38,832 nucleotides of DNA, taken from Gammaproteobacteria bacterium. Its GTDB lineage: Bacteria > Pseudomonadota > Gammaproteobacteria > Pseudomonadales > Pseudohongiellaceae. The notes below the pieces were generated by a model, which saw only the letters and a program-made list of their open reading frames with translations, was not told the DNA's origin and did no database searches. The first letter of the stretch is position 1, and each line of letters opens with the position of its first letter. Below are positions 12,356 through 38,832 of the stretch, piece by piece. The DNA lies in the NCBI GenBank assembly GCA_017853205.1, contig JAFMKB010000022.1, forward strand, positions 1-38,832, read 5' to 3'. The position numbers were made by a program, and so were the translations under genes.

Positions 12356-12837
12356 AACTGACTTTCCTTGCTGGCAGCGGGTTTCTTTGCAGCGAGTTCT
12401 TCGCCTTGAGTAAAGGATCGAGCTGGGTCAACAATCAAACTACCCCCGACCAACGAGGTTCGTCCAAGTAGCATTCTAAATGCCATATTTTCTCTATTAG
12501 TGAGGCTGAACTCAGCCTCCCAGCACTTGCCCATAAACTCTACCGTAGTAGAGATGAACAGCCTTTCTTCTTCGTGACCTCCCGAATCTCGGACTATTCG
12601 GCGATCGACAACAGGGGCGCGACAGGTAATCGTATTGCTCAGGTCATCTTGCAGCGGATGCACTTGGAAGATGGCGAATTCTTGTCCGTCGATGATCTCG
12701 GTTTCTATGCTGTATGCGTGAATCGCTGAGGAGCGAGCGCCAGTATCAATCTTTGCTTTGATTGCTTCGATGCCAAGTCCTGGAAGCGATAGCCATTCTC
12801 GCCATCCAACAATAACTTTTTCTTTAATATTAGTCAT
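12352..12837 (-). CDS. RimB-like retropepsin-fold zinc/aspartic protease
   Basis: A 161-aa protein of the Zn_protease family (PF05618-type), related to RimB, which trims the glutamate tail added by RimK in Pseudomonas. The N-terminus [18 protein letters not shown] leads into [12 protein letters not shown], whose DTGA resembles a retropepsin active site. No signal peptide is seen. It is the first gene of a three-gene minus-strand operon, coupled by a 4-base overlap to rimK. Pairing with rimK strengthens the functional guess: control of S6 glutamylation. Confidence 0.88.
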
Positions 12838-29408: not shown

Positions 29409-31001
29409 ATGGCCTCTGCTATGACCTCCGCGAATATCCACAGCCAGAAAATACTCATCCTCGACTTCGGTTCTCAGTACACGCAGCTCATCGCGCGTCG
29501 TGTGCGTGAACTTGGCGTTTACTGCGAGATCTGGGACTACGCTGTCGATCAGGCGTTGTTCGATGAGTTCGCCCCTCAGGGCATTATTTTTTCTGGCAGT
29601 CCGGAGTCGGCAAACACATCAGATTCGCCGCGTCCGCCCGAATTCCTGTATGAGTCGGGTCTGCCTATTTTGGGTATCTGCTACGGCATGCAGATCATGG
29701 CAGAGATGTTTGGCGGTAAGGTCGAGGGATCAGCGAAGTCGGAATTTGGCTACGCCAAGGTCGATGTCTGCGCGCCGTCGCGGCTATTCGATGGTATCGA
29801 AGATAGCATCGATGCCGACGGCTTACCTCAACTCGACGTGTGGATGAGTCACGGTGACAAGGTCACCCAAGTGCCTCCGGGTTTCGAAATTATTGCGAAA
29901 ACCGAGAGCGCACCGATTGCCGCCATGGCTAACGCCGAGCGTAATTACTTTGGCATTCAGTTTCATCCCGAAGTGACTCATACGCTGCAGGGTTTGAGGC
30001 TACTTGAGCGCTATGTCCGAGAGATATGCGGCTGCGAGGCGCTGTGGACCTCGGCGAATATTATCGAAGATGCTATCCAGACCGTTCGTGCTCAGGTCGG
30101 CACCGACACCGTGTTACTCGGCCTTTCCGGTGGTGTCGATTCTTCTGTCGTTGCTGCGCTGCTGCACAAGGCTATTGGCGATCAGCTCGTGTGTGTATTT
30201 GTTGACAACGGCTTGTTACGACTCAACGAGGGCGATCAAGTGATGGCGACCTTCGCCAAGAATATGGGGGTTAAGGTTATTCGCGCCGACGCCGAAGACC
30301 TCTTTCTAGGCAAGCTCGCAGGAGTCGATGACCCAGAGGCGAAGCGCAAAGTAATTGGTAATACCTTTATAGAAGTGTTCGACGCCGAAGCGAGCAAGCT
30401 TACTAATGTGAAGTGGCTCGCGCAGGGCACAATTTACCCTGATGTAATCGAGTCCGCAGGCTCGAAGACAGGCAAGGCGCATGTCATCAAATCTCACCAC
30501 AACGTCGGCGGTCTTCCCGAAAATATGAAGATGGGATTAGTCGAGCCCTTACGCGAACTCTTCAAAGACGAGGTTCGTAAAATTGGCGTAGAACTCGGGC
30601 TGCCTTATGACATGGTCTATAGGCACCCGTTCCCCGGGCCTGGTCTCGGCGTTCGCGTGCTTGGCGAGGTTAAGAAAGAGTACTGCGATATTCTGCGTCG
30701 CGCCGACGCCATCTTCATGGAAGAACTGCACCGCTCAGGCTGGTATAACAAGGTAAGCCAAGCATTTGCTGTATTCTTGCCCGTTCGTTCCGTTGGCGTC
30801 GTAGGCGACGCACGCCGCTACTCGTGGGTCATCACGTTACGAGCAGTAGAAACCATCGACTTTATGACTGCACGCTGGGCGCATCTGCCTCCTGAACTGC
30901 TTGAGACTATTTCTGGTAGGATTATTAACGAGGTCGCAGATGTGTCTAGGGTGGCTTACGATATCTCCTCTAAGCCGCCTGCGACTATTGAGTGGGAGTA
31001 G
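29409..31001 (+). CDS. guaA: GMP synthase (glutamine-hydrolysing)
   Basis: GuaA aminates XMP to GMP. The 530-aa product has the class I glutaminase domain (Cys91 in [15 protein letters not shown] triad region), the ATP pyrophosphatase P-loop ([10 protein letters not shown]), and the C-terminal dimerisation domain ending in [14 protein letters not shown] 29421 ([10 protein letters not shown]) is an alternative start. The 3' end is intact, ending 39 bases before the left repeat of the mobile element. guaA is a known insertion hotspot, but here the element sits past the gene rather than inside its last codons. Confidence 0.98.
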
Positions 31002-31004
31002 TGA

Positions 31005-31024
31005 TATGGGCTGTAAGCCCCATA
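31005..31024 (+). terminator. Hairpin after guaA
   Basis: GGGCT (31008-31012) pairs with AGCCC (31016-31020) over a 3-base loop, extended by TAT/ATA around one bulged base. There is no good T-tract. It probably marks the guaA transcript end and the last host-like sequence before the element. Confidence 0.5.
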
Positions 31025-31040
31025 CTTACTGACTTTTGCC

Positions 31041-31091
31041 ACTTGTAAACTACTTGAAAACACCCATTTTTGAGCGGTTTTTGTAAACAAA
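31041..31091 (+). repeat. Left attachment-site repeat (attL)
   Basis: Bases 31041-31074 are identical to 38607-38640; after one C/T mismatch and a one-base T-run difference the match continues through GTAAACAAAC, about 50 alignable bases. ACTTGTAAAC at 31041 recurs at 31091-31100 just inside the element, which suggests spaced recombinase sites. Position 128 bases before the integrase start fits an attL. Confidence 0.85.
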
Positions 31092-31218
31092 CTTGTAAAC
31101 ACGTGCCGCTACTGAAAATCGTAGGTGTATCAAGTATCTGATAGTACAATGCTTGAAGCGGATACGCTCCAAGTCCAAGTCCATAATGTTCACAGTGACT
31201 TAGAAAAGGAGCGTTACT

Positions 31219-32550
31219 ATGAACAGAGGACAAGTATTGGCTGTCGACTTTGAGAAGCGAGAACTTAAAGACACACAGCAAAATTCTGACAACGACAAAC
31301 AGTCGTTCTACCGCAATAAAACAAAAATCTGCAATGACGCCGTCACCATCTTTCAAACAGCAAAGAGTGGTGGCATTTGGCATATGCGTGCGTACGTCGG
31401 CGACGCTGACAAGTACTTCCAAAAGAGTCTGCGGACTAAAGACAAAGCGAGTGCGATTGATAAGGCGACGTTAGAGCACGCCAAGTTGCTCGTACTCAAG
31501 TCTGAAGGCAAAGCAATCTTCTCGCCCACTGTTTACAAAGCAGTAGAGCAATACCTACAGCATAGGTATGACTACGAAGTTCAGATGGACAGCATCACAG
31601 TTGGTAGGTGGGGCACTATTAGAACGCACATGAATTGGTTCAAACGCTTTGTGAACGCCGAGTACAGATTGGACAACTACACAGCGAAGGCACTGATGGA
31701 CTATCAGCGTTTTCGTAGGGAAAAGGGTGCAAAGGACGTAACGATTGCTAACGAGCAATCCTCTATCAATCACTTTTGTAAGTGGGCGTATGACGAAGGC
31801 TTACACAACATAGCGAAATACGTCTTTCCTAAAATAAAGCAGAGGGGTGAGGACAGAGCGGCGATACGTCGAGCAACCTTCACTGATAGTGAGTACAAGG
31901 CTTGTTACGAAGACTTGCGAACGTGGTGTAGCAAAGCATCTAAAGAAAAGGCAGTAGCAAGACTGAATGAAGCGGCGTTAGGCAGTGACGAGCGATTGTT
32001 CAATAGAGACTTGTTCAGACATTGGTTCCTAATACAAGCGAACACAATGATGCGAAATGGCGAGTTGTTTGGGCTGAAATGGAAGAACGTTAGGACATAC
32101 GAAAAGCATGGTAAGCGTTTGGCGGAAATCACCGTTGAAGCACACACGAGTAAGGTGCGAAAAAGCAGAGTGTTTGTGAGCAGAGGCGGTGAGCACTTTG
32201 ATAGGTTGAAGCAAATCAGTAAGCACACAAAGAAAGAAGACTTTGTGTTTACGATGGACAATGGCACGCATTGGAACAAGCACAACAGACGAGCACTTGA
32301 CTATCAGTTTCATAAGTTGATGGAGCGTGTGGGTATTGATGACTACAAAGCAAGAAACGTGTCGTTGTACAGCCTACGCCACTATGGCATCACACAGAGG
32401 CTGACTAACGGAGTAACTAATCTCACTCAGTTCGCATTGGACTGTGGGACGAGTGTTAATCACATCACTAACACCTACTACCACACCAAAATTGGGAACA
32501 GCGAGGCGAATGCGTTGATGATGAGAGAAGTGCGGGCAGATAAGAGTTAG
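31219..32550 (+). CDS. Tyrosine recombinase / phage-type integrase
   Basis: A 443-aa integrase, the probable driver of insertion. An N-terminal arm-binding-like region (FQTAKSGGIWHMRAYVGD) and SAM-like core-binding region (about 120-190) precede the catalytic domain. Visible catalytic positions are Arg279 (MMRNGELFGLKW), Lys312 (HTSKVRKSRVF), Arg387 in YSLRHYGITQRL, and nucleophile Tyr420 in TNTYYHTK. The canonical first His of HxxR is Tyr384, and the late His/Trp position is a Thr or Ser. The start ATG has AAAAGGAG ahead. It faces inward next to the left repeat, as is usual. Confidence 0.92.
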   Translation: MNRGQVLAVDFEKRELKDTQQNSDNDKQSFYRNKTKICNDAVTIFQTAKSGGIWHMRAYVGDADKYFQKSLRTKDKASAIDKATLEHAKLLVLKSEGKAIFSPTVYKAVEQYLQHRYDYEVQMDSITVGRWGTIRTHMNWFKRFVNAEYRLDNYTAKALMDYQRFRREKGAKDVTIANEQSSINHFCKWAYDEGLHNIAKYVFPKIKQRGEDRAAIRRATFTDSEYKACYEDLRTWCSKASKEKAVARLNEAALGSDERLFNRDLFRHWFLIQANTMMRNGELFGLKWKNVRTYEKHGKRLAEITVEAHTSKVRKSRVFVSRGGEHFDRLKQISKHTKKEDFVFTMDNGTHWNKHNRRALDYQFHKLMERVGIDDYKARNVSLYSLRHYGITQRLTNGVTNLTQFALDCGTSVNHITNTYYHTKIGNSEANALMMREVRADKS

Positions 32551-32895
32551 TCTCATCTGCTCAATGCCCTCACAACGCATTAAAACCCCACTTAACAACA
32601 CTCAAAAAATGAGCATGTGTTTGTACTGCTGAAGCACAAACGTTGCTGTAAGACGCTGTGTGACGCTTATTTCCGCCGAAATTCATTCGTGCGTCACACA
32701 ATTTCATCCGAAATTCAAAAAATTAGAGCGAAAATTACTACTGCTCCAATGCTGTACACGATGAATTTCGACGTAATTGCCGCTATACCCCACAGAAATT
32801 CCAATAAATTGTCAGCACCAAACACTGAAATTAGGAAAATTCCCAAAAACAATTAGGGAAAATTCAGCCATTTTTCGAATTAATTATTAATTAAT
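32551..32895. other. AT-rich region with recurring GAAATTC-like motifs
   Basis: This 345-base gap between the two convergent recombinase genes has no supported gene. GAAATTC or its near forms (GAATTTC, GAAAATTC) recur at about 32678, 32710, 32763, 32795, 32826, 32835 and 32858, in both orientations. The last 60 bases are almost all A and T. Possible roles are arm sites for a recombinase, an origin, or nucleoid-protein binding. Confidence 0.5.
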
Positions 32896-33474
32896 TCAGT
32901 AACTTACTGTGTTAACTGCGTTGTACAACTTGTCATCACTCACTTCTATGTATCGCTGTGTTGTGCTCAGCGAAGAGTGTCTTGCTAACTTCTGAATGAT
33001 GGGCACAGCAACGCCGTTTTCACTTAACTTAGTGATGAACGTGCGTCTGCCACTGTGTGAACTTGCTTGTGGGATGTTTGCTAACTCGTACAACTGCCTA
33101 AACAAGTTTTGAATTGTTTGACTGCTGAACGAGCCTTTCTGTGTTCTCAGCAGAAATCCACCCTTATCTCGCTTGAGCAACTGTGGTTTAGCAGTTACGT
33201 AACGCAGAATCTCTTTCTTAAGTGCTGTACTGACGACAACAGTCTGCCGTTTATTGCCCTTTGTTTGCTCCTTATCCAACACAATCAAGTCCAAAACCTC
33301 GTTTGTGCCGCTAAGCACGTTGTTGATACGCAAGTTGGCAATCTCACACGCTCGCATACCACTAAGTACACTGAGACTAACTATCAGTCTGTTGCGTTCT
33401 GCGTATCTCGTCAGTTCGCACACTTTCATCAGTTTCTTTATTTCCGTCTCGTTCAGTACCTTCGCTTGCTTCAT
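32896..33474 (-). CDS. Minimal tyrosine recombinase (catalytic domain only)
   Basis: A 192-aa XerC/D-like or FimB/FimE-sized recombinase. All six catalytic positions are present: Arg41 (SGMRACEI), Lys72 (EQTKGNKRQ), His140-x-x-Arg143 (SSHSGRRTF), His166 (LARHSSLSTT) and Tyr175 (TTQRYIEV). There is no separate core-binding domain, as in DNA invertases. It runs towards the first integrase. A GGAG site stands eight bases before ATG 33474. It might act as an invertase, resolve replication intermediates of the element, or assist excision; I saw no obvious invertible segment next to it. Confidence 0.9.
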   Translation of the reverse strand: MKQAKVLNETEIKKLMKVCELTRYAERNRLIVSLSVLSGMRACEIANLRINNVLSGTNEVLDLIVLDKEQTKGNKRQTVVVSTALKKEILRYVTAKPQLLKRDKGGFLLRTQKGSFSSQTIQNLFRQLYELANIPQASSHSGRRTFITKLSENGVAVPIIQKLARHSSLSTTQRYIEVSDDKLYNAVNTVSY

Positions 33475-33862
33475 AGTCGTTGCTCCATTTCACACCTACT
33501 CTAACTTCGCTCACTAGCAGTAACTTTTTCAAAAACTCTTTGTGTTGCTCTCTCGTCATCACAGCAAATGTGTTGTTTTGTGTTGCTAATAGTGTGTTTT
33601 CAAACTTTTCAGATTCCTACCGAAAAGACGCCTAGTCTCAAATGTCAGTGTTTATGGGAGGTACACGCAGAAACGTGTGCTTTTACAAAGAAGCAAACAT
33701 TTATTCAGATAAATAACTTTGTGCTTACTTCTGTAAGAAATAGGGCTTCTCACAAACGTACGTGAGCACAGCACAAGGCGTAATTTCGGCTGAAAATACG
33801 CTGTGCGGAGATTTGTGTAGCAAAACACGCAACACCAAAACTATGTGTCTGAAAGAGAAAGA
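33475..33862. other. Divergent regulatory region with palindromes
   Basis: These 388 bases lie between the divergent minimal recombinase and the next plus-strand gene. They hold GCTTAC-TTCT-GTAAG (33723-33737), a palindrome ACGTACGT near 33757, and a long imperfect hairpin at 33771-33806 (GCACAAGGCGTAATTTC against GAAAATACGCTGTGC). Short frames present on either strand have no support. Confidence 0.5.
33723..33738. repeat. GCTTAC-N4-GTAAG palindrome, copy 1
   Basis: GCTTAC (33723-33728), a 4-base loop, then GTAAG (33733-33737). The same palindrome recurs just before the Rep gene, which points to a shared regulator-binding site. Confidence 0.5.
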
Positions 33863-34333
33863 ATGAGATTGCACGAGGTATATGAGGGAGTTCAGTTCGT
33901 CAGCGTTATGTCTATTGCTGAACGCATTGTTGGATTGAAGTCCAAAGCAACGTCCAAACAACGGCTAACCACCGCAGAGTGGAATTGGCTCAAACTCACG
34001 TGCGAGAACCAAACAGTGCTTCGTAGATTGAGTAGAGCGTGTGACAAGTACATAAGTTTCAATGGTGATTGGAACGCTATTGATAGCGAGATGCTGAGAA
34101 GCGGCGGCACGTGTGCTGAAGCCTTCAACTTCCTCAAAGAAATCAAAAGGCAAATGGATGAAGACGCACACACGCGATTGCTACAAGCAACGGATGAAGT
34201 GATGAATAGTGCTGAGATGGCAGAGATAGCCAAACAGCAAGCCCTCATTGACTTACAAAACAGTCACAACGAACAGCAAAGTGATAGTGCTGAGCATGTG
34301 AGCAGTTTGGCTGACAAAGCAGTAGTCATCTAA
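33863..34333 (+). CDS. Small helical protein upstream of rep, unknown
   Basis: I do not recognise this 156-aa protein. It is highly charged and predicted mostly helical: IAERIVGLKSKATSKQRL, then TAEWNWLKLTCENQTVLRRL, and a long Glu/Gln/Ala-rich C-terminal half (EMAEIAKQQALIDLQNSHNE) that could form a coiled coil. There is no membrane segment. GTG 33845 is an alternative start adding six residues. It ends 58 bases before the Rep gene and probably belongs to the same transcript, so an accessory replication or regulatory role is possible. Confidence 0.7.
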   Translation: MRLHEVYEGVQFVSVMSIAERIVGLKSKATSKQRLTTAEWNWLKLTCENQTVLRRLSRACDKYISFNGDWNAIDSEMLRSGGTCAEAFNFLKEIKRQMDEDAHTRLLQATDEVMNSAEMAEIAKQQALIDLQNSHNEQQSDSAEHVSSLADKAVVI

Positions 34334-34354
34334 CCCACCGAAAATTCTGCTTTT

Positions 34355-34372
34355 TGCTTACTGATGTAAGCA
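34355..34372. promoter_or_regulatory. TGCTTAC-N4-GTAAGCA palindrome before rep, copy 2
   Basis: A perfect 7-base inverted repeat (34355-34361 with 34366-34372) ends 19 bases before the Rep start. Its position suits an operator for Rep control, or a hairpin between the two genes. Confidence 0.5.
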
Positions 34373-34391
34373 CAAAAGATAAATAAGTTTT

Positions 34392-34916
34392 ATGAGTGAA
34401 CTTATTGATTTAGCAGAATGGTGCGAACAACTGAGAGAGGCAAATGCTTTTGACGAGTGCATTTCGTTCTTTAGCAAAGGCGACGACTGTAGGCATGTTG
34501 ATTACTTCGTCACTGCTCACTTGTCGAAGTCGAAGCAACAAGTTGCCGAGCATCATATCAAACATTTCCGTAATGTTTTAGACAGAAAGACGTGTGGGCG
34601 AGGACGCAGACTGTACAAGGCAGTTTTTGTCGAAGAGGGCAACAATGCTCTCAGTGTGAGTTACAACCAACGTCATTGCCATCTGCTTATTCAAAAGCCA
34701 AAGCACTTAACAAAGGCACAATTTCAAAAACAATTTAATCAACTATGGGCAGATATTTGCGGTAGTGACGACATCAAGTGGAAACGCATAACAGCAAAGG
34801 ACGGCGGTGTTGGAGGGTTGATTAGTTACTGCAACAAAGAAATCAAAAGTGGCATTAAGGCATTCAGAAAGGAACTAAGCGATAACAGTTATCAGCAACA
34901 CAAAAGGCAAAACTAA
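34392..34916 (+). CDS. HUH-family rolling-circle replication initiator (Rep)
   Basis: A 174-aa endonuclease-like protein with the three HUH motifs in order: motif 1 at about residues 36-43 (DYFVTAHL), motif 2 His95-Cys-His97 (RHCHLLIQKP), and motif 3 with a single catalytic Tyr146 and Lys149 (LISYCNKEI, the YxxK form). Such proteins nick one strand at an origin, stay joined to the 5' end and start rolling-circle replication. No helicase domain is fused, so a host helicase would be needed. Iteron-like repeats and hairpins follow at once. A relaxase-like role in transfer is an alternative, but the small size favours Rep. Confidence 0.82.
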   Translation: MSELIDLAEWCEQLREANAFDECISFFSKGDDCRHVDYFVTAHLSKSKQQVAEHHIKHFRNVLDRKTCGRGRRLYKAVFVEEGNNALSVSYNQRHCHLLIQKPKHLTKAQFQKQFNQLWADICGSDDIKWKRITAKDGGVGGLISYCNKEIKSGIKAFRKELSDNSYQQHKRQN

Positions 34917-34973
34917 GGCACAAGCATTACGTCACAAGCATTACGGCATTACTTAAGGCACTAACTACGGCAC
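34917..34973 (+). repeat. Iteron-like direct repeats after rep
   Basis: Five GGCAC-like words start at 34917, 34931, 34945, 34957 and 34969 (spacing 14, 14, 12, 12); GTCAC and GGCAT are variants. The first two repeats share CAC-AAGCATTAC, and TTAC or CTAC recurs before the later words. Regular spacing close to a helical turn directly after a Rep gene suggests Rep-binding iterons. Confidence 0.65.
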
Positions 34974-35006
34974 ACATAACTACACTGACATTATGGCGAC
35001 TTGATT

Positions 35007-35092
35007 GGAGCAAAAACGCAAAGCGATTGCTCCCTTCACACTATCAAGCAACACCGAGTGTCAGCACGCACTTACTGTCTTCACTGACAGTA
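35007..35092. other. Hairpin cluster, candidate replication origin
   Basis: Two stem-loops follow the iterons: GGAGCAA (35007-35013) with TTGCTCC (35027-35033), and TACTGTC (35073-35079) with GACAGTA (35086-35092) around a 6-base loop. HUH initiators nick within or beside such hairpins. The whole 222-base gap 34917-35138 holds no gene. Confidence 0.55.
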
Positions 35093-35153
35093 GAGTCTCT
35101 ATTGTCTAACACATTGTGTATTTATCAGTATTCGAGCATTGGAGAGAAACATA

Positions 35154-35471
35154 ATGATTGTAGATAAAGTATTGGAGCACTTGAGACACAGAGACAACAC
35201 GCTCAGCAAAAGTAGGTTTGCTGTTGAATATTTGGGAAAGGATAGAAGTTACTTGTTTGTGAGAAAGCACAGACAACAAGACATAAGCAATGACGCCTTA
35301 CTGAGGCTTTATGGCGAACTTGTTGGCAGTAACGCGGCATACGAGCAGTTCTACGAAGAGCGTGATTTAGCACACAGCGACAACGCGGCTTATAGACGCG
35401 ACTTTGAGGCAAGTCAGCAGTTGTGCGAGGAGGTGTTGAATGAGATTAAGAACAGAGCGATGAATGCGTAG
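35154..35471 (+). CDS. DUF6626-like small putative DNA-binding protein
   Basis: A 105-aa protein. The first half (LRHRDNTLSKSRFAVEYLGK, then DRSYLFVRKHRQQDISNDAL) follows the pattern of the DUF6626 family, small proteins with a helix-turn-helix-like shape in which a Phe and a YLG-RS-Y segment are conserved. The second half is an acidic helix. ATG 35154 has GGAG nine bases ahead; a TTG 15 bases upstream is less likely. It may regulate copy number or the element's promoters. Family assignment is from memory of the pattern. Confidence 0.7.
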   Translation: MIVDKVLEHLRHRDNTLSKSRFAVEYLGKDRSYLFVRKHRQQDISNDALLRLYGELVGSNAAYEQFYEERDLAHSDNAAYRRDFEASQQLCEEVLNEIKNRAMNA

Positions 35472-35492
35472 TAGCACATAGACGCGAGTTAA

Positions 35493-35502
35493 GGGGGGGG
35501 GG
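35493..35502 (+). repeat. G10 homopolymer
   Basis: Ten consecutive G lie between two convergent genes. It is non-coding here, so a length change would not shift a frame. It may be a variable tract or an assembly weak point. Confidence 0.8.
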
Positions 35503-35506
35503 TGAA

Positions 35507-35526
35507 CAGTAGGTAAATTCCTACTG
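35507..35526. terminator. Hairpin between convergent genes
   Basis: CAGTAGG (35507-35513) pairs perfectly with CCTACTG (35520-35526) over a 6-base loop, between the ends of the DUF6626-like gene and the next minus-strand gene. No T-tract follows on either strand. Confidence 0.45.
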
Positions 35527-35544
35527 CTCTCCACGTATCAAAAA

Positions 35545-36057
35545 TTACGCTGCCTCCTTCATGTGTAAGTTGAGATTTGTTGTAGGAATTGGCTGTTTGC
35601 TTACATACCAATCGTCAGTGTTGTCTCCACACATCTCAGCAATTTGCTCAAAACCTTGTATGATTTTGCGTGCCTTTGCTTTTCTGTTTAGTTGTTGCTT
35701 CAACAACTTCCAACTAATGATGTCTAAGCCTTCATCATCTACTTCTAAATAAGTAGTGACTTCCTTCATTTGCTTCAGTGCTTCTGCGTTCTTTGTGAAG
35801 TGTGCTGTGCTATTGATAACCTCTGCTTGCTCATCTTTTGTAAGCCACACATATCTGCCTAATGCTCCACAGATAAAATTGCAAACATCAAACTGCGCAC
35901 GTGCTTTTTTACTTGCATTGCCATTCAACACCGCTTGCTCGGCATTCCACCCTTCAAGTTGTAGTCCGTGTTTTGAGATAGAGGACAAGTGATACTTGCG
36001 TGTGAAGTGCTTTAGTTTGCGAGTGTCTTTCGCTTGTTGCTGTGTTTGCCTAATCAT
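35545..36057 (-). CDS. Element gene A, unknown 170-aa protein
   Basis: I do not recognise this protein. It is soluble, basic in the first 60 residues (KDTRKLKHFTRKYHLSSISK) and helical after that, with a KLLKQQLNRKAKARKIIQGFEQ helix near residue 130. The frame runs open to 36174, but I chose ATG 36057, which has AAGGAA ten bases ahead, because the extra part consists of a repeated leader found also before gene B. Gene B lies upstream on the same strand. Shared leaders imply joint control. Confidence 0.72.
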   Translation of the reverse strand: MIRQTQQQAKDTRKLKHFTRKYHLSSISKHGLQLEGWNAEQAVLNGNASKKARAQFDVCNFICGALGRYVWLTKDEQAEVINSTAHFTKNAEALKQMKEVTTYLEVDDEGLDIISWKLLKQQLNRKAKARKIIQGFEQIAEMCGDNTDDWYVSKQPIPTTNLNLHMKEAA

Positions 36058-36173
36058 AATTTGTTTCCTTAAATTTGTTGAACATGTCAGCGTTATTGCT
36101 GACATGTGTATAGAGTAGAAGTGCTTCGTGTGTGTATCGTATTCATGCATCAATAATATGAATACTTGATACA
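36055..36173 (-). repeat. 119-bp leader repeat, copy 1 (before gene A)
   Basis: This stretch aligns without gaps to 36400-36518 and is largely identical, including a continuous CAGCGTTATTGCTGACATG and GTGCTTCGTGTGTGTATCG. It contains a 10-base inverted repeat ACATGTCAGC/GCTGACATGT (36082-36107) and an imperfect inverted repeat built from GTATTCAT and ATGAATAC. On the minus strand it lies directly before the gene A start, so it is probably promoter plus operator. Confidence 0.75.
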
Positions 36174-36174
36174 C

Positions 36175-36402
36175 CTACGCCCACATATGCTGTTGTTCAA
36201 CAATCACGCAGCCGTCAGCAACGATTTCGTCTACTGTTTTGTCTGCCTTGTCCACATCCACAATTAACGTGAAACAGTTGTCACGCTTCTTGTAGCCCTT
36301 CATGTAGGCATCAAGCGTGAGACTCTGCATGGGTTCGCAGCCCTTATTTCCGTGCTCGTCCTCGCATGTGCTGTAAATGATTTTTACGAATTGATTTTCC
36401 AT
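36175..36402 (-). CDS. Element gene B, unknown 75-aa acidic protein
   Basis: Not recognised. A small soluble acidic protein with two cysteines early (YSTCEDEHGNKGCEP), one central cysteine and a beta-rich middle (NCFTLIVDVDKADKTVDEIV). ATG 36402 has GGAG nine bases ahead; an in-frame ATG at 36417 would swallow that site. It is followed by the leader of gene A and preceded by its own copy of the same leader. Small acidic proteins on such elements may be inhibitors or decoys, but nothing here proves that. Confidence 0.68.
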   Translation of the reverse strand: MENQFVKIIYSTCEDEHGNKGCEPMQSLTLDAYMKGYKKRDNCFTLIVDVDKADKTVDEIVADGCVIVEQQHMWA

Positions 36403-36518
36403 AATTTGTATCTCCAAATTGTTTGATTACGTCAGCGTTATTGCTGACATGTGTATAGAGTAGGTGTGCTTCGTGTGTGTATCGTATTCATGCAACATAA
36501 GAGTGAATACTTGATACA
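36400..36518 (-). repeat. 119-bp leader repeat, copy 2 (before gene B)
   Basis: Second copy of the leader, same length as copy 1. The central palindrome is reduced to GTCAGC/GCTGAC (36431-36436, 36443-36448) because one flanking base differs. It ends in GAATACTTGATACA, a motif found again before the divergent gene C. Confidence 0.75.
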
Positions 36519-36604
36519 TTTGCTTGGTGTGATACATGTGTTTCACACCGCCCACTCGTGTAGGCAATCACTTCATCACCCACACATATAATTGTGCTTT
36601 TCGT

Positions 36605-36652
36605 TGGTTGGTGTATCATATTCAAGTAAGAAACTTAGGGATACTTGACACT
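36605..36652 (+). promoter_or_regulatory. TATCA/ATACTTGA motifs before gene C
   Basis: GTGTATCATATTCAAGTA and GGGATACTTGACAC form a loose inverted pair immediately before ATG 36653. The same words occur in the two leader repeats and near 31131, so one regulator may act at all of them. A classical promoter is not evident. Confidence 0.4.
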
Positions 36653-37819
36653 ATGACAGTGCGTTACTTTCCGAAGCCACAGCCGCTAAGCCCAAACACA
36701 AAAACTTGGGTGGATAGTGGTGGTGTGCGATGGCAGAAGGACAAACGTGCGAGAGGTGGAAGGCGAGAAGTAAAAGGCACTTGGTGCACTGACAGCATCT
36801 ACTATCTGTGGTTCGAGTACCTAAAGCGAAGCAAGAACTACAAGAAGGCTTGTGGTTACGAAGTCGAAATGACTGAGGAAGAGCAAAAGGCGTACAAGAA
36901 GTGGCGAGCATTTAAGGGCACAAAGACTAGGAAGAGCACTGAGAAAATACTCAGCGACTTCGGCGATATACATGCTTACGAAGGTGTCGACGGCTTTTGG
37001 AAGTGGTGGATAAAACGTGGGCAGTATTTGTTTGGTATAGAGCCCATTAATCAGTTGGAGTCATTTGCGAGTGTTGCTGACGTGAACAGCATTGCTGACA
37101 AGGTTGAAGATGGCACTTTCAAGTTAGTTGCCATACCCACAAACATCAAAATGGGCACCATAAAAAGAAGGCTCAACAAGTTGCTCAAAGAGATGACAGT
37201 AACTCCTACCGAAGAGCAAACAGCCGCCTACTTTATCGAGCAACCAAAAGTTGATGTAAAGAGTCTGCGTTCTTGCTTGCTAGCCTATGACTTAAGCCAA
37301 CAAGGCATGGATGCGTTAGAGATTGGCATTCAAGTGAGAAACATTGATGCGGCTGAAGCAGATGACTTGATTGAGGATGGCAGAAGCAGAAGCAGACAGT
37401 ATGACATTGCAAAACTGCAGTCTGCGGCAACGAGGGATGTAAAAAGGTATTGGGCGGTTTACGACAAAATTATTGGTGGACTCAAAAAGAAGCAAAAGAA
37501 AGAGGATGCTTTTTGGGACAAGGTGCACGAAGAGCAGATGGAAAAGGACAAGCCCAAAAAGCGTACAAGAGAAGAGTTGCTGAATAATGTAGGCGAGTTT
37601 GACAGTAGGTTTGGTTACGACGGAGTAGGGAGGACGAAAGTCGATTACTTGAGTGATGAGCACATCAGAGAGGCTATGCTGAAAGAAGGTTACCGCAAGT
37701 CTCATTACGAACGTACGCAGAGAAAGCAAAGCATTCGTACCAACACTTACAAGTTGCTCACAAAGGCACGTGAGAATATTGAGGCAACTGAGAGTGGTAT
37801 GTTTGGTGTAGGGCATTGA
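36653..37819 (+). CDS. Element gene C, unknown 388-aa protein
   Basis: Not recognised. The N-terminal part is rich in Trp and Tyr (IYYLWFEYLKRSKNYKKAC; FGDIHAYEGVDGFWKWW; GQYLFGIEP). A middle segment (SCLLAYDLSQQGMDALEIGI) has the look of a helix-turn-helix, and the C-terminal third is Lys/Glu-rich and basic (KKRTREELLNNVGEFDSRF). There is no signal or membrane segment. I chose ATG 36653 because the 39 codons upstream overlap a regulatory-looking region; the frame is open back to 36536. Nucleic-acid binding is likely; a role in replication, packaging or regulation is undecided. Confidence 0.75.
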   Translation: MTVRYFPKPQPLSPNTKTWVDSGGVRWQKDKRARGGRREVKGTWCTDSIYYLWFEYLKRSKNYKKACGYEVEMTEEEQKAYKKWRAFKGTKTRKSTEKILSDFGDIHAYEGVDGFWKWWIKRGQYLFGIEPINQLESFASVADVNSIADKVEDGTFKLVAIPTNIKMGTIKRRLNKLLKEMTVTPTEEQTAAYFIEQPKVDVKSLRSCLLAYDLSQQGMDALEIGIQVRNIDAAEADDLIEDGRSRSRQYDIAKLQSAATRDVKRYWAVYDKIIGGLKKKQKKEDAFWDKVHEEQMEKDKPKKRTREELLNNVGEFDSRFGYDGVGRTKVDYLSDEHIREAMLKEGYRKSHYERTQRKQSIRTNTYKLLTKARENIEATESGMFGVGH

Positions 37820-37880
37820 CGATACTGAAAACGCGTTTGCATTAATGCATTTAAGGAAAAATTGGCAAAGAGGTTTAAAA

Positions 37881-38462
37881 ATGAACCTTCAAAAATTTAA
37901 GGTGTATGCAGACGCTTTATTTGGAGCAGTAGTCTTCTTCGTATTGATGTATTTAGGCTCGATGTACTTGATATACCAAGTTATCGAATCTTATGGACGG
38001 CTTTTGCCAACTTCTGTGGTTGAAGCGATTTACCGAAACTTAGATTTTCTGCCAATACTGTCAGCGACTTCGGATAGCACAGACTTCAAAATGAAAAGCC
38101 AGTTAAGTTGGTTAGTCATCATTAGTTTGCCGAATCTGTATGCAACTTACTTAACAACTAAGAAAGTTTATCGGTTTTTGTTGAAGAGTGAGATTGAGTC
38201 GGAGACTTGTAAAAATTGTGGGGTTCCGTACCAAATATCATCTTCCAAGCAAGATTTTGTTACCACCGCTGTTCCACGTTCAACAGTGAAGAAAAGAGGA
38301 CTGGATTCCAACGGTAATCCAGTGTCCACGCATTTAGTAAGTTGGACAGAGGAAATCGGACACTCGATTATAACGACTCAATGTAATGCATGCGGTGCCG
38401 CATCAACGAGGAGGAAAAATTTCAATCGGAAGGTTAATAAGCGGAGTGATTTGCAATTCTAA
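37881..38462 (+). CDS. Element gene D, two-helix membrane protein with zinc-ribbon-like tail
   Basis: A 193-aa protein of unknown function. A membrane helix lies at about 15-38 (ALFGAVVFFVLMYLGSMYLIY) and a second at about 75-92 (LSWLVIISLPNLYATYL). The cytoplasmic-looking C-terminus has two CxxC pairs, CKNCGVPY and QCNACGAA, about 60 residues apart, a plausible zinc ribbon. ATG 37881 has AGAGG ahead; ATG 37845 is less likely. It is the last gene before the right repeat, the usual place for cargo, so it may serve the host or block competitors. Its word composition differs slightly from the rest of the element. Confidence 0.75.
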   Translation: MNLQKFKVYADALFGAVVFFVLMYLGSMYLIYQVIESYGRLLPTSVVEAIYRNLDFLPILSATSDSTDFKMKSQLSWLVIISLPNLYATYLTTKKVYRFLLKSEIESETCKNCGVPYQISSSKQDFVTTAVPRSTVKKRGLDSNGNPVSTHLVSWTEEIGHSIITTQCNACGAASTRRKNFNRKVNKRSDLQF

Positions 38463-38779
38463 ATCGAGTTAGCAAGTCATACTTGCGTTTGAAATGTTGT
38501 AACAACAGTTGCAAACCTTGCAACTCGTATAGTCGTTAAGGTGCTGAATTTCATAAAAAAGTACGCAATTTGGAGATGGGTAGTTGGCAAGCAAAAGTTG
38601 TAAATTACTTGTAAACTACTTGAAAACACCCATTTTTGAGTGGTTTTGTAAACAAACACAAGTGGTATCAAAAAATTAATAATAATGTATCTGTTTAAAT
38701 GGGTGAAGGTTAGCCCGATTGCAATACAGCGTAGAAGTAGTAGAGCCATCTAATAATTTAAATTCAAAAAGGAGCATAT
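38463..38779. other. Palindrome-rich right end and attachment region
   Basis: No gene is visible in these 317 bases. They contain three close hairpins: GCAAGT/ACTTGC (38472-38486), TGTTGT/ACAACA (38495-38507) and AGTTGCAA/TTGCAACT (38507-38525). The right repeat follows at 38607 and then AT-rich sequence up to the next ribosome-binding site. The hairpins may be terminators, an oriT-like site or recombinase accessory sites. Confidence 0.5.
38607..38657 (+). repeat. Right attachment-site repeat (attR)
   Basis: The first 34 bases (38607-38640) equal 31041-31074; the match continues after one substitution and a one-base gap. The sequence before each copy differs, which places the left limit of the repeat at ACTTGTAAAC. 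Confidence 0.85.
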
Positions 38780-38832
38780 GTGAGTCCGATTTTTTGTATA
38801 GATTGTTATGAATCGATATCACTAATCCAGCT
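38780..38832 (+). CDS. Start of a further gene, cut by the window edge
   Basis: GTG 38780 stands five bases after GGAG (AAAAAGGAGCATAT) and opens a frame of 17 codons beginning MSPIFCIDCYESI to the window end. Its distance from the right repeat (173 bases from repeat start) nearly equals that from the left repeat to the integrase start (178), and the AAAAGGAGC site is shared. It could be the integrase of a second, tandem element. Identity cannot be judged from 17 residues. Confidence 0.4.
   Translation, partial: MSPIFCIDCYESISLIQ

Follow-up and report, generated by a model that had tools for sequence, protein, structure and literature searches.

Short DNA words are missing from an integrative element at the guaA 3' end in a Pseudohongiellaceae contig, and other word sets from several of its relatives

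The window analysed here is one entire contig (JAFMKB010000022.1, 38,832 bases) of a Pseudohongiellaceae genome of 2.54 Mb in 109 contigs. Its last part, 31002-38828 (7,827 bases, 42.7% GC), follows guaA; to judge by its genes, it is a small mobile element integrated at the 3' end of guaA and carries an integrase, a XerC/D-like protein, a HUH-type Rep recognised through its relatives, and a conserved protein designated o8 (Table 1). This element has lost, almost completely, a set of short DNA words that the adjoining chromosome carries, and there is good support for selection on the DNA words themselves. The explanation preferred here, to which a probability of about 0.72 is assigned, is that an integrative element has been purged of short words by nucleases met as unprotected DNA during transfer. 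Word values given below as x/y are observed over expected counts, the latter derived from dinucleotide counts unless stated otherwise.

Between 31002 and 38828, GATC, AGCT, GGCC, CCGG and CCWGG do not occur and GCGC occurs once, at 35895, in agreement with an original prediction made from the letters alone, which had placed the single GCGC at 35897. The mean counts in 300 dinucleotide-preserving shuffles were 17.6 for GATC, 39.6 for AGCT, 8.8 for GGCC, 6.2 for CCGG, 24.6 for GCGC and 5.0 for CCWGG; the observed values were reached by none of the shuffles for the five 4-mers and by three for CCWGG. The approximately 29 GATC formerly expected is correct as a single-base figure but too high once dinucleotides are kept. 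In synonymous-codon shuffles of the open reading frames (ORFs), the shortage was retained for GATC (0 against 11.4), AGCT (0 against 20.2), GGCC (0 against 9.2) and GCGC (1 against 11.5), with 0/200 shuffles as low for each, while CCGG was not significant in this test (1.8 expected, 21/200 as low). The chromosomal part of the window, 1-31001, contains 154 GATC, 122 AGCT, 97 GGCC, 92 CCGG and 317 GCGC, or 105%, 80%, 83%, 81% and 101% of the dinucleotide expectation, respectively. The comparison of element and chromosome that had been suggested thus gives a depletion confined to the element, and the words are indeed present in the chromosome, as claimed; AGCT is mildly low there (0/100 shuffles equally low). 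The claim that other palindromes persist in the element holds roughly, with GTAC at 26/26, but TGCA (23/64), CTAG (4/22), CATG (18/36) and CGCG (6/17) are also low. As a separate observation, TCGA is over-represented in the host chromosome 1-31001 (293 where 173 are expected), and GTAC (40/68) and ACGT (72/106) are under-represented there.

The loss extends to words that are not palindromes. CAGG/CCTG and GACC/GGTC are absent (approximately 38 and 29 expected) and CCAG/CTGG is found three times (approximately 37 expected); an order-2 model gives expectations of 33, 19 and 32 for the same pairs. CCCG/CGGG is likewise low, with 2 against 12. It can be observed that the missing words fold into two closed sets, GRYC (GATC, GGCC, GACC and GGTC) and CCNG with its complement CNGG. 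GRYC stands at 0/57 against 175/170 for the sister motif GRRC, and non-palindromic CCNG at 5/96 against 465/368 for CCNH, falling to 1/86 within 31002-37840. GCWGC is found at 3/21. The avoided set of the window element is therefore best described as GRYC plus CCNG, both common to the nearest relatives, together with GCWGC, AGCT and GCGC. Purely palindromic avoidance was rejected because CAGG, CCAG and GACC are absent or nearly so, and seven independent words were set aside in favour of the two motifs on grounds of parsimony and of a fragment from genome G383 described below. The earlier formulation, many palindromic type II sites, was consequently too narrow: the strongest signals are GRYC and non-palindromic CCNG, each with about three specified base pairs, and some relatives are nearly devoid of GpC. 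GATC and GGCC can nevertheless be separate pressures, as the relative G039 lacks both while its GACC is normal (49/46).

For comparison with other DNA, the 133 4-mer classes expected 10 times or more were used, a class being counted as depleted at 10% of expectation or less. By this yardstick six classes are depleted in the window element and seven in the related element of AG-908-B16, against none in three 7.8-kb stretches of the window's chromosomal part and none in the first 7.8 kb of the contigs L005, L007, L030 and L039, the last two of which are partly element. Five 7.8-kb windows of T7 gave 1, 0, 1, 1 and 1 depleted classes, with GATC always lowest, and P4 gave none. The pattern resembles known restriction avoidance in that short words are absent from mobile DNA and present in the host, T7 lacking GATC in three of its five windows; it differs in the number of classes affected and in the inclusion of non-palindromes and of words of two or three bases. 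It also differs from what had been proposed as the mark of broad-host plasmids, since a large plasmid study found avoidance to be stronger in plasmids than in core genes for 6-bp but not for 4-bp palindromes (PMC10359461).

Relatives were selected by homology to integrase, Rep or o8, independently of word counts. The most complete is a full-length backbone adjoining guaA in isolate AG-908-B16, a K189A clade bacterium whose genome, judging by its name, is presumably from a single cell (contig L028, 8503-16370). Its proteins are identical to those of the window element at 41% (integrase), 78% (XerC/D-like), 62% (o3), 75-77% (Rep), 50% over 70 residues (o5) and 35-41% (o8), the middle of the element carries two ORFs differing from o6, o7 and o9, and the alignable backbones are about 70% identical. 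In this element GRYC is 0/59 and CCNG 1/100. TGCA (0/57) and GTAC (0/20), which the window element keeps in part or in full, are gone, while AGCT (25/49) and GCGC (6/21) are retained to some extent. The element belongs to an array behind guaA (L029, 1371-13500, contig 5 of AG-908-B16), made up of the element, a HsdM gene, a Mrr-type gene, a second attachment (att) core, a second element, an acyltransferase/SGNH gene and a third att-like core. The HsdM gene (PF02384, PF12161) lies behind o8 and the Mrr-type gene before the next element. In the 8.5 kb behind the full-length backbone, with HsdM at the start and Mrr near the end, none of 21 tested words was at or below 10% of expectation. The second element of the array, which sits behind another guaA-like att core, is internally deleted, its integrase start being fused to the end of its o8, and has GRYC 0/7 and CCNG 0/14, with GCWGC at expectation (6/5). 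Because none of the tested words is nearly lost from the 8.5 kb while both elements are depleted, the word loss belongs to the backbone and not to the site or the cargo.

Selection can be followed over shorter distances in a contig from a Luminiphilus metagenome-assembled genome (L005), which is 90% identical to the window element over 2.46 kb. When the 231 substitutions separating the two were placed randomly on the window element, a mean of 11.7 CCNG resulted (minimum 2 in 500 runs), and L005 has none. CCNG selection thus continues in L005, and the avoided set shifts between close relatives. Independence of the two motifs is indicated by a 1.1-kb fragment of G383 (L030, 1-1110, end of contig C80; integrase 43-46% identical to that of the window), in which GRYC is 0/11, GRRC 33/33 and CCNG 17/25; since GRYC is lost there while CCNG remains, GRYC behaves as a unit apart from CCNG. 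Regarding movement, the integrases of the window and L005 are 95% identical while the adjoining GuaA proteins are only 72.5% identical, implying that the element moves between hosts. Between the window and AG-908-B16, GuaA is 65% and Rep 77% identical, and the deleted element, in the same host, carries an integrase 81% identical to that of the window over 355 residues. The original prediction of a restriction-evading element moving among hosts is thereby borne out as to movement, while restriction enzymes as the agent are inferred.

Several more distant relatives avoid sets of their own. G039, at the glmS site with serine recombinases, has RGCY 0/50 against RGCR 125/96 and YGCR 68/47; its backbone shows GATC 0/29, CCGG 1/10, GTAC 0/16 and CGCG 0/7, and CCAG (15/41) and TTAA (3/22) are also low. 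The second piece of this backbone starts at 12701 in one count and at 12791 in the others, the later start dropping three GATC beside the cargo. That cargo, a fatty-acid desaturase and a TetR gene (PF00487, PF13972; L033, 11130-12614), contains five GATC and four CCGG. It has no AGCT and no GGCC, of which only about 3 and 2 are expected. In G134, GGCC is 0/20 and CGCG 0/18 over 10.4 kb. CTAG was left out as a word since the flanking chromosome of G180 itself lacks it (0/22).

In three relatives the loss reaches a dinucleotide. GpC is almost absent, and the proteins are alanine-poor, in L040 1-4952 (G180), L041 1-2208 (G843, a 2.2-kb fragment at glmS) and L032 7400-11480 (genome G412, from the genus of the window, at guaA, with an integrase 34-35% identical and, by eye, an o8-like gene). 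The symmetrised GpC ratio is 0.18 in G180, with 37 GpC in 4,952 bases, 0.27 in G843 and 0.15 in L032, against 1.13-1.35 in flanking chromosomes. CGC in G180 is 2/85 by single-base expectation, and no 4-mer there falls to 10% of expectation or below beyond the GpC effect. YGCR holds 13 of the 16 GpC remaining in L032. Alanine is reduced accordingly, to 1 residue in the G180 recombinase (574 aa), 0 in its o8 (237 aa), 2 in the L032 integrase (425 aa) and 6 in its o8 (321 aa); the mean alanine content is 7.3% in the window element, 7.6% in the AG-908-B16 element and 10.1% in six chromosomal proteins. In G180, GpC at codon positions 1-2, 2-3 and 3-1 numbers 6, 7 and 21 against 59, 51 and 76, and in non-coding DNA 3 against 19; it is likewise low in all frames and non-coding DNA of L032 and G843. 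Because the shortage of GpC spans all codon frames and extends to non-coding DNA, selection is considered to act on the DNA, with alanine loss as its consequence, and this codon-frame test led to the rejection of an alanine-codon or tRNA cause. More generally, an effect of composition, codon choice or alanine codons could be argued from the lower GC of the elements relative to their flanking chromosomes and from the alanine-poor relatives, but the absences survive both kinds of shuffle and the sister motifs are normal. Barring a mutational process specific to GRYC, CCNG or RGCY, these controls refute it; almost no credence is therefore given to it, and the earlier statement that composition is not responsible is upheld.

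The process that may have produced these losses can be described in steps. The element would probably excise, replicate as a rolling circle and enter new cells as unprotected DNA. As it enters, nucleases that recognise very short specific sequences would cut those copies that bear them, and purifying selection would thereby strip these sites from the backbone, other sets having been stripped in several relatives. Restriction-type cleavage at entry is the probable agent, although nucleases encoded by phages or by the element itself would leave an equal mark.

Several results weigh against this explanation. No nuclease or methyltransferase with GRYC or CCNG specificity was identified. A C5-methyltransferase (PF00145) was found in one of eight element-bearing genomes, as a partial match, in a search that did not extend to N6 and N4 methyltransferases; the present hosts are for this reason not an obvious source of the agent. 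According to a passage in a paper of 2013, the only natural enzymes that cut this often are CviJI, SetI and FaiI (PMC3681635). L005 has two GRYC against a random mean of 6.2 (minimum 1), a weaker result than for CCNG, and its AGCT (3) and GCGC (4) equal random placement (3.3 and 3.2). A second G383 fragment, with the tail of o8 (L031, 1-700), has GRYC 4/5, and the distant Rep locus G559 has GRYC 15/18 and CCNG 22/25. L007 and L008, with a 53%-identical integrase, are partly depleted (GRYC 5/14 and 6/11, CCNG 10/22 and 5/16, TGCA 1/12 and 2/12). The repetition on related elements that had been suggested therefore gave a mixed outcome, with distinct avoidance sets in several and none in some.

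Other explanations differ mainly in the origin of the nuclease. If the element were a phage satellite, the missing words would be the targets of helper-phage nucleases that degrade the host chromosome, and a satellite without them would survive. The small size, the combination of integrase and Rep, and the HsdM gene behind the AG-908-B16 element are in keeping with this and resemble the marine phage satellites PICMI as outlined in part of PMC10803314; furthermore, chloroviruses code for nucleases with 2-4-bp sites thought to degrade host DNA, according to a passage of PMC7019647, and G039 avoids exactly the RGCY of CviJI. However, none of the nine ORFs was recognised as a capsid, packaging or AlpA-like gene, short-pattern scans of IMG/VR yielded no relative, and the element DNA, the window Rep, the G039 Rep and the G134 o8 had no match in the phage collection, against which the window o8 was not run. 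A satellite is accordingly regarded as unlikely. It is distinctly less probable that modification-dependent (type IV) restriction is responsible, some hosts methylating these words and others then cutting them. LpnPI-type enzymes have the site CmCDG, which CCNG resembles, but GRYC, RGCY, TGCA and GTAC together are not easily explained in this way, and the eight hosts searched have almost no C5-methyltransferases.

Slightly more improbable again is self-avoidance, in which a nuclease or nickase of the element attacks competitors at these words, so that the element cannot carry them; a PLE nickase has reportedly been found with such self-avoidance. The unnamed ORFs differ between the window (o6, o7 and o9) and AG-908-B16 (two others), as do some of the avoided words, which would suit such an origin. 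A cutter of CCNG or GRYC would, however, attack the many copies of these words in the unprotected host chromosome and so destroy it, and no convincing nuclease domain was found: the AG-908-B16 o8 has a NUC match below threshold (0.036) and the window's o3 a PADLOC Cas12f match of 13.7 bits (0.0055), both read as chance.

Comparison with described systems places the proposed purging by nucleases during transfer in context. The site of CviJI is RGCY, as given in a passage of PMC3681635, and its relaxed form is all NGCN except YGCR, as given in one of PMC7019647. The absence of exactly RGCY from G039 corresponds to the former, and the sparing of mainly YGCR in L032 roughly to the latter. CviJI is known from a chlorella virus, however, and not from these hosts, and the window and AG-908-B16 elements avoid instead GRYC, which has the form of RGCY, and CCNG. 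PICMI, for which part of PMC10803314 gives a model of integrase, AlpA and a DUF3987/DUF5906 primase at fis, are likewise small, sit integrated in marine gammaproteobacteria and carry an integrase and a replication gene, some of them defence genes as well. The present elements lie at guaA or glmS instead of fis, have a HUH Rep in place of the primase, and in some relatives use serine recombinases; among the nine ORFs of the window element, at guaA, no AlpA or primase match was found, so that it is not counted as a PICMI. Similarity to rolling-circle Reps of the REP_ORF2-G2P family (PF23343) is seen in three relatives whose Reps exceed the cut-off and in the conserved HxH and YxxK; unlike those Reps, the window Rep has no Pfam match, no virion genes were recognised, and o8 has no named family. 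Tycheposons, like other marine cargo islands, carry an integrase and exchangeable cargo, and their target sites differ from that of the window element.

Site avoidance is already known; here it amounts to near-complete loss of motifs equivalent to three bases and of motifs that are not palindromes, and in some relatives GpC and alanine have been lost to a like degree. Literature searches, which do not span all print, gave no case of so nearly complete an absence of words that are non-palindromic or only 2-3 bases long. Neither GRYC nor CCNG was found among the literature matches listed, and none of the matches listed, seen as title and start of abstract, concerned GpC depletion in phages. The missing words of the small Rep/o8 elements of gammaproteobacteria may form a readable record of ultra-frequent-cutting nucleases (GRYC, CCNG, RGC-type and CGC-type), selection in some elements having removed a dinucleotide and nearly all alanine, and each word set recording the hosts or phages passed through; the chances of this wider reading are considered even. 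If nucleases are the cause, such short-target enzymes must be common where the elements travel, and uncharacterised. The missing words predict specificities and so offer a direct way to search for the enzymes; they could also document the travels of mobile DNA. How far selection at the DNA level can reshape proteins is suggested by the recombinases, which contain almost no alanine.

Table 1. Features of the element and its borders in the window.
Feature	Position	Strand	Basis or remark
Word-poor tract without GATC, AGCT, GGCC, CCGG, GRYC	31002..38828		word counts
CCNG/CNGG exceptions	32533, 38099, 38301, 38319, 38714		a sixth begins at 38827 and runs past the end
Likely att core ACTATTGAGTGGGAGTAG, guaA 3' end	30984..31001	+	putative crossover role
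Left copy of ~51-bp direct repeat	31041..31091	+	putative integrase arm sites or att flank
Right copy of ~51-bp direct repeat	38607..38657	+	96-98% identical to left copy
Tyrosine integrase, 443 aa, adjoining guaA	31219..32550	+	PF00589 7e-7, PF13102 3e-5; phrog_1 integrase 2e-25
Short XerC/D-like tyrosine recombinase, 192 aa	32896..33474	-	PF00589 4e-27; NCBIfam XerA/C/D models below cut-offs
o3, unnamed	33845..34333	+	62% identical in AG-908-B16 element
HUH-type Rep, 174 aa, putative rolling-circle initiator	34392..34916	+	HxH H95/H97, YxxK Y146/K149
o5, DUF6626 small protein	35139..35471	+	PF20331 6e-7
o6, unnamed	35545..36174	-	no match in AG-908-B16 element
o7, unnamed small protein	36175..36417	-	no match in AG-908-B16 element
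Two 119-bp direct repeats, 86% alike	36055-36173, 36400-36518		overlap starts of o6 and o7
o8, unnamed conserved Rep partner	36653..37819	+	LWFEYxK ... FDxWW ... LF
o9, unnamed	37845..38462	+	hydrophobic N-terminus (by eye), sub-cut-off zinc-ribbon match; no AG-908-B16 match

The genes of the element were examined in relation to those of its relatives. HxH is the metal motif and YxxK the catalytic motif of HUH Reps, and both are invariant in six aligned Reps. PF23343 matches the Reps of G039 (5e-7), G134 (1.5e-7) and G843 (7e-7) over the cut-off and those of G180 (5.5e-5) and AG-908-B16 (0.02) below it; the window Rep has no PDB match by sequence. In G039, G134 and G180 the Rep gene adjoins a divergent o8-like gene, and Rep plus o8 is for this reason read as the core. 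The ORF of o8 as called begins at 36536, the start at 36653 having been picked from alignment with the AG-908-B16 copy, and o9 contains three of the CCNG exceptions. AlphaFold2 predictions from two-row alignments were unusable, with a mean predicted local distance difference test score of 37.7 for Rep and 37.2 for o8. Capsid, primase, conjugation and defence families were not found among the nine ORFs beyond chance-level matches. Relaxase and mating-pair families were absent from nine ORFs searched in Pfam and eight in NCBIfam, oriT not having been searched; the window Rep could act as a relaxase. Rfam and tRNA searches of the window found nothing. The element DNA had no match in plasmids either, nor had the Reps of the window and G039 and the o8 of G134; the window o8 matched three Bradyrhizobium plasmids over one third of its length. 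The pair of 119-bp repeats looks like a duplicated upstream region.

The integrase adjoins guaA in the window, L005, AG-908-B16 and L032. Cores similar to the likely att core occur in AG-908-B16 within guaA (L028, 8491) and away from it (L029, 10016 and 13485), a repeated core being seen only in that array. Since the contig ends at 38832, the originally stated 38828 need not be the end of the element; its right border falls at the right repeat copy or past the contig end, and 38640-38832 had no match in the genus set's 80 other genomes. Where an element border did not coincide with a gene end, it was drawn by eye from GC and word profiles. L005, the deleted AG-908-B16 element, G180 and G843 are partial, and G383 is split over contig ends.

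The window's own genome included each time, integrase relatives turned up in 10 of 137 genomes of the family; for Rep relatives the figures were 5 of 390 in the order and 2 of 369 in the class. Of these 10 genomes with an integrase relative, only two besides that of the window, G383 and G412, had their words counted. With the window integrase as query, reference genomes yielded four loci. In narrower searches, o8 was present in 1/293 and Rep in 2/293 genomes of the order, and a two-row Rep profile matched in 1/369 genomes of the class. Contigs end within or just past elements in the window, L005, L007, L030, L040 and L041, which may mean that population variation or multiple forms break the assembly.

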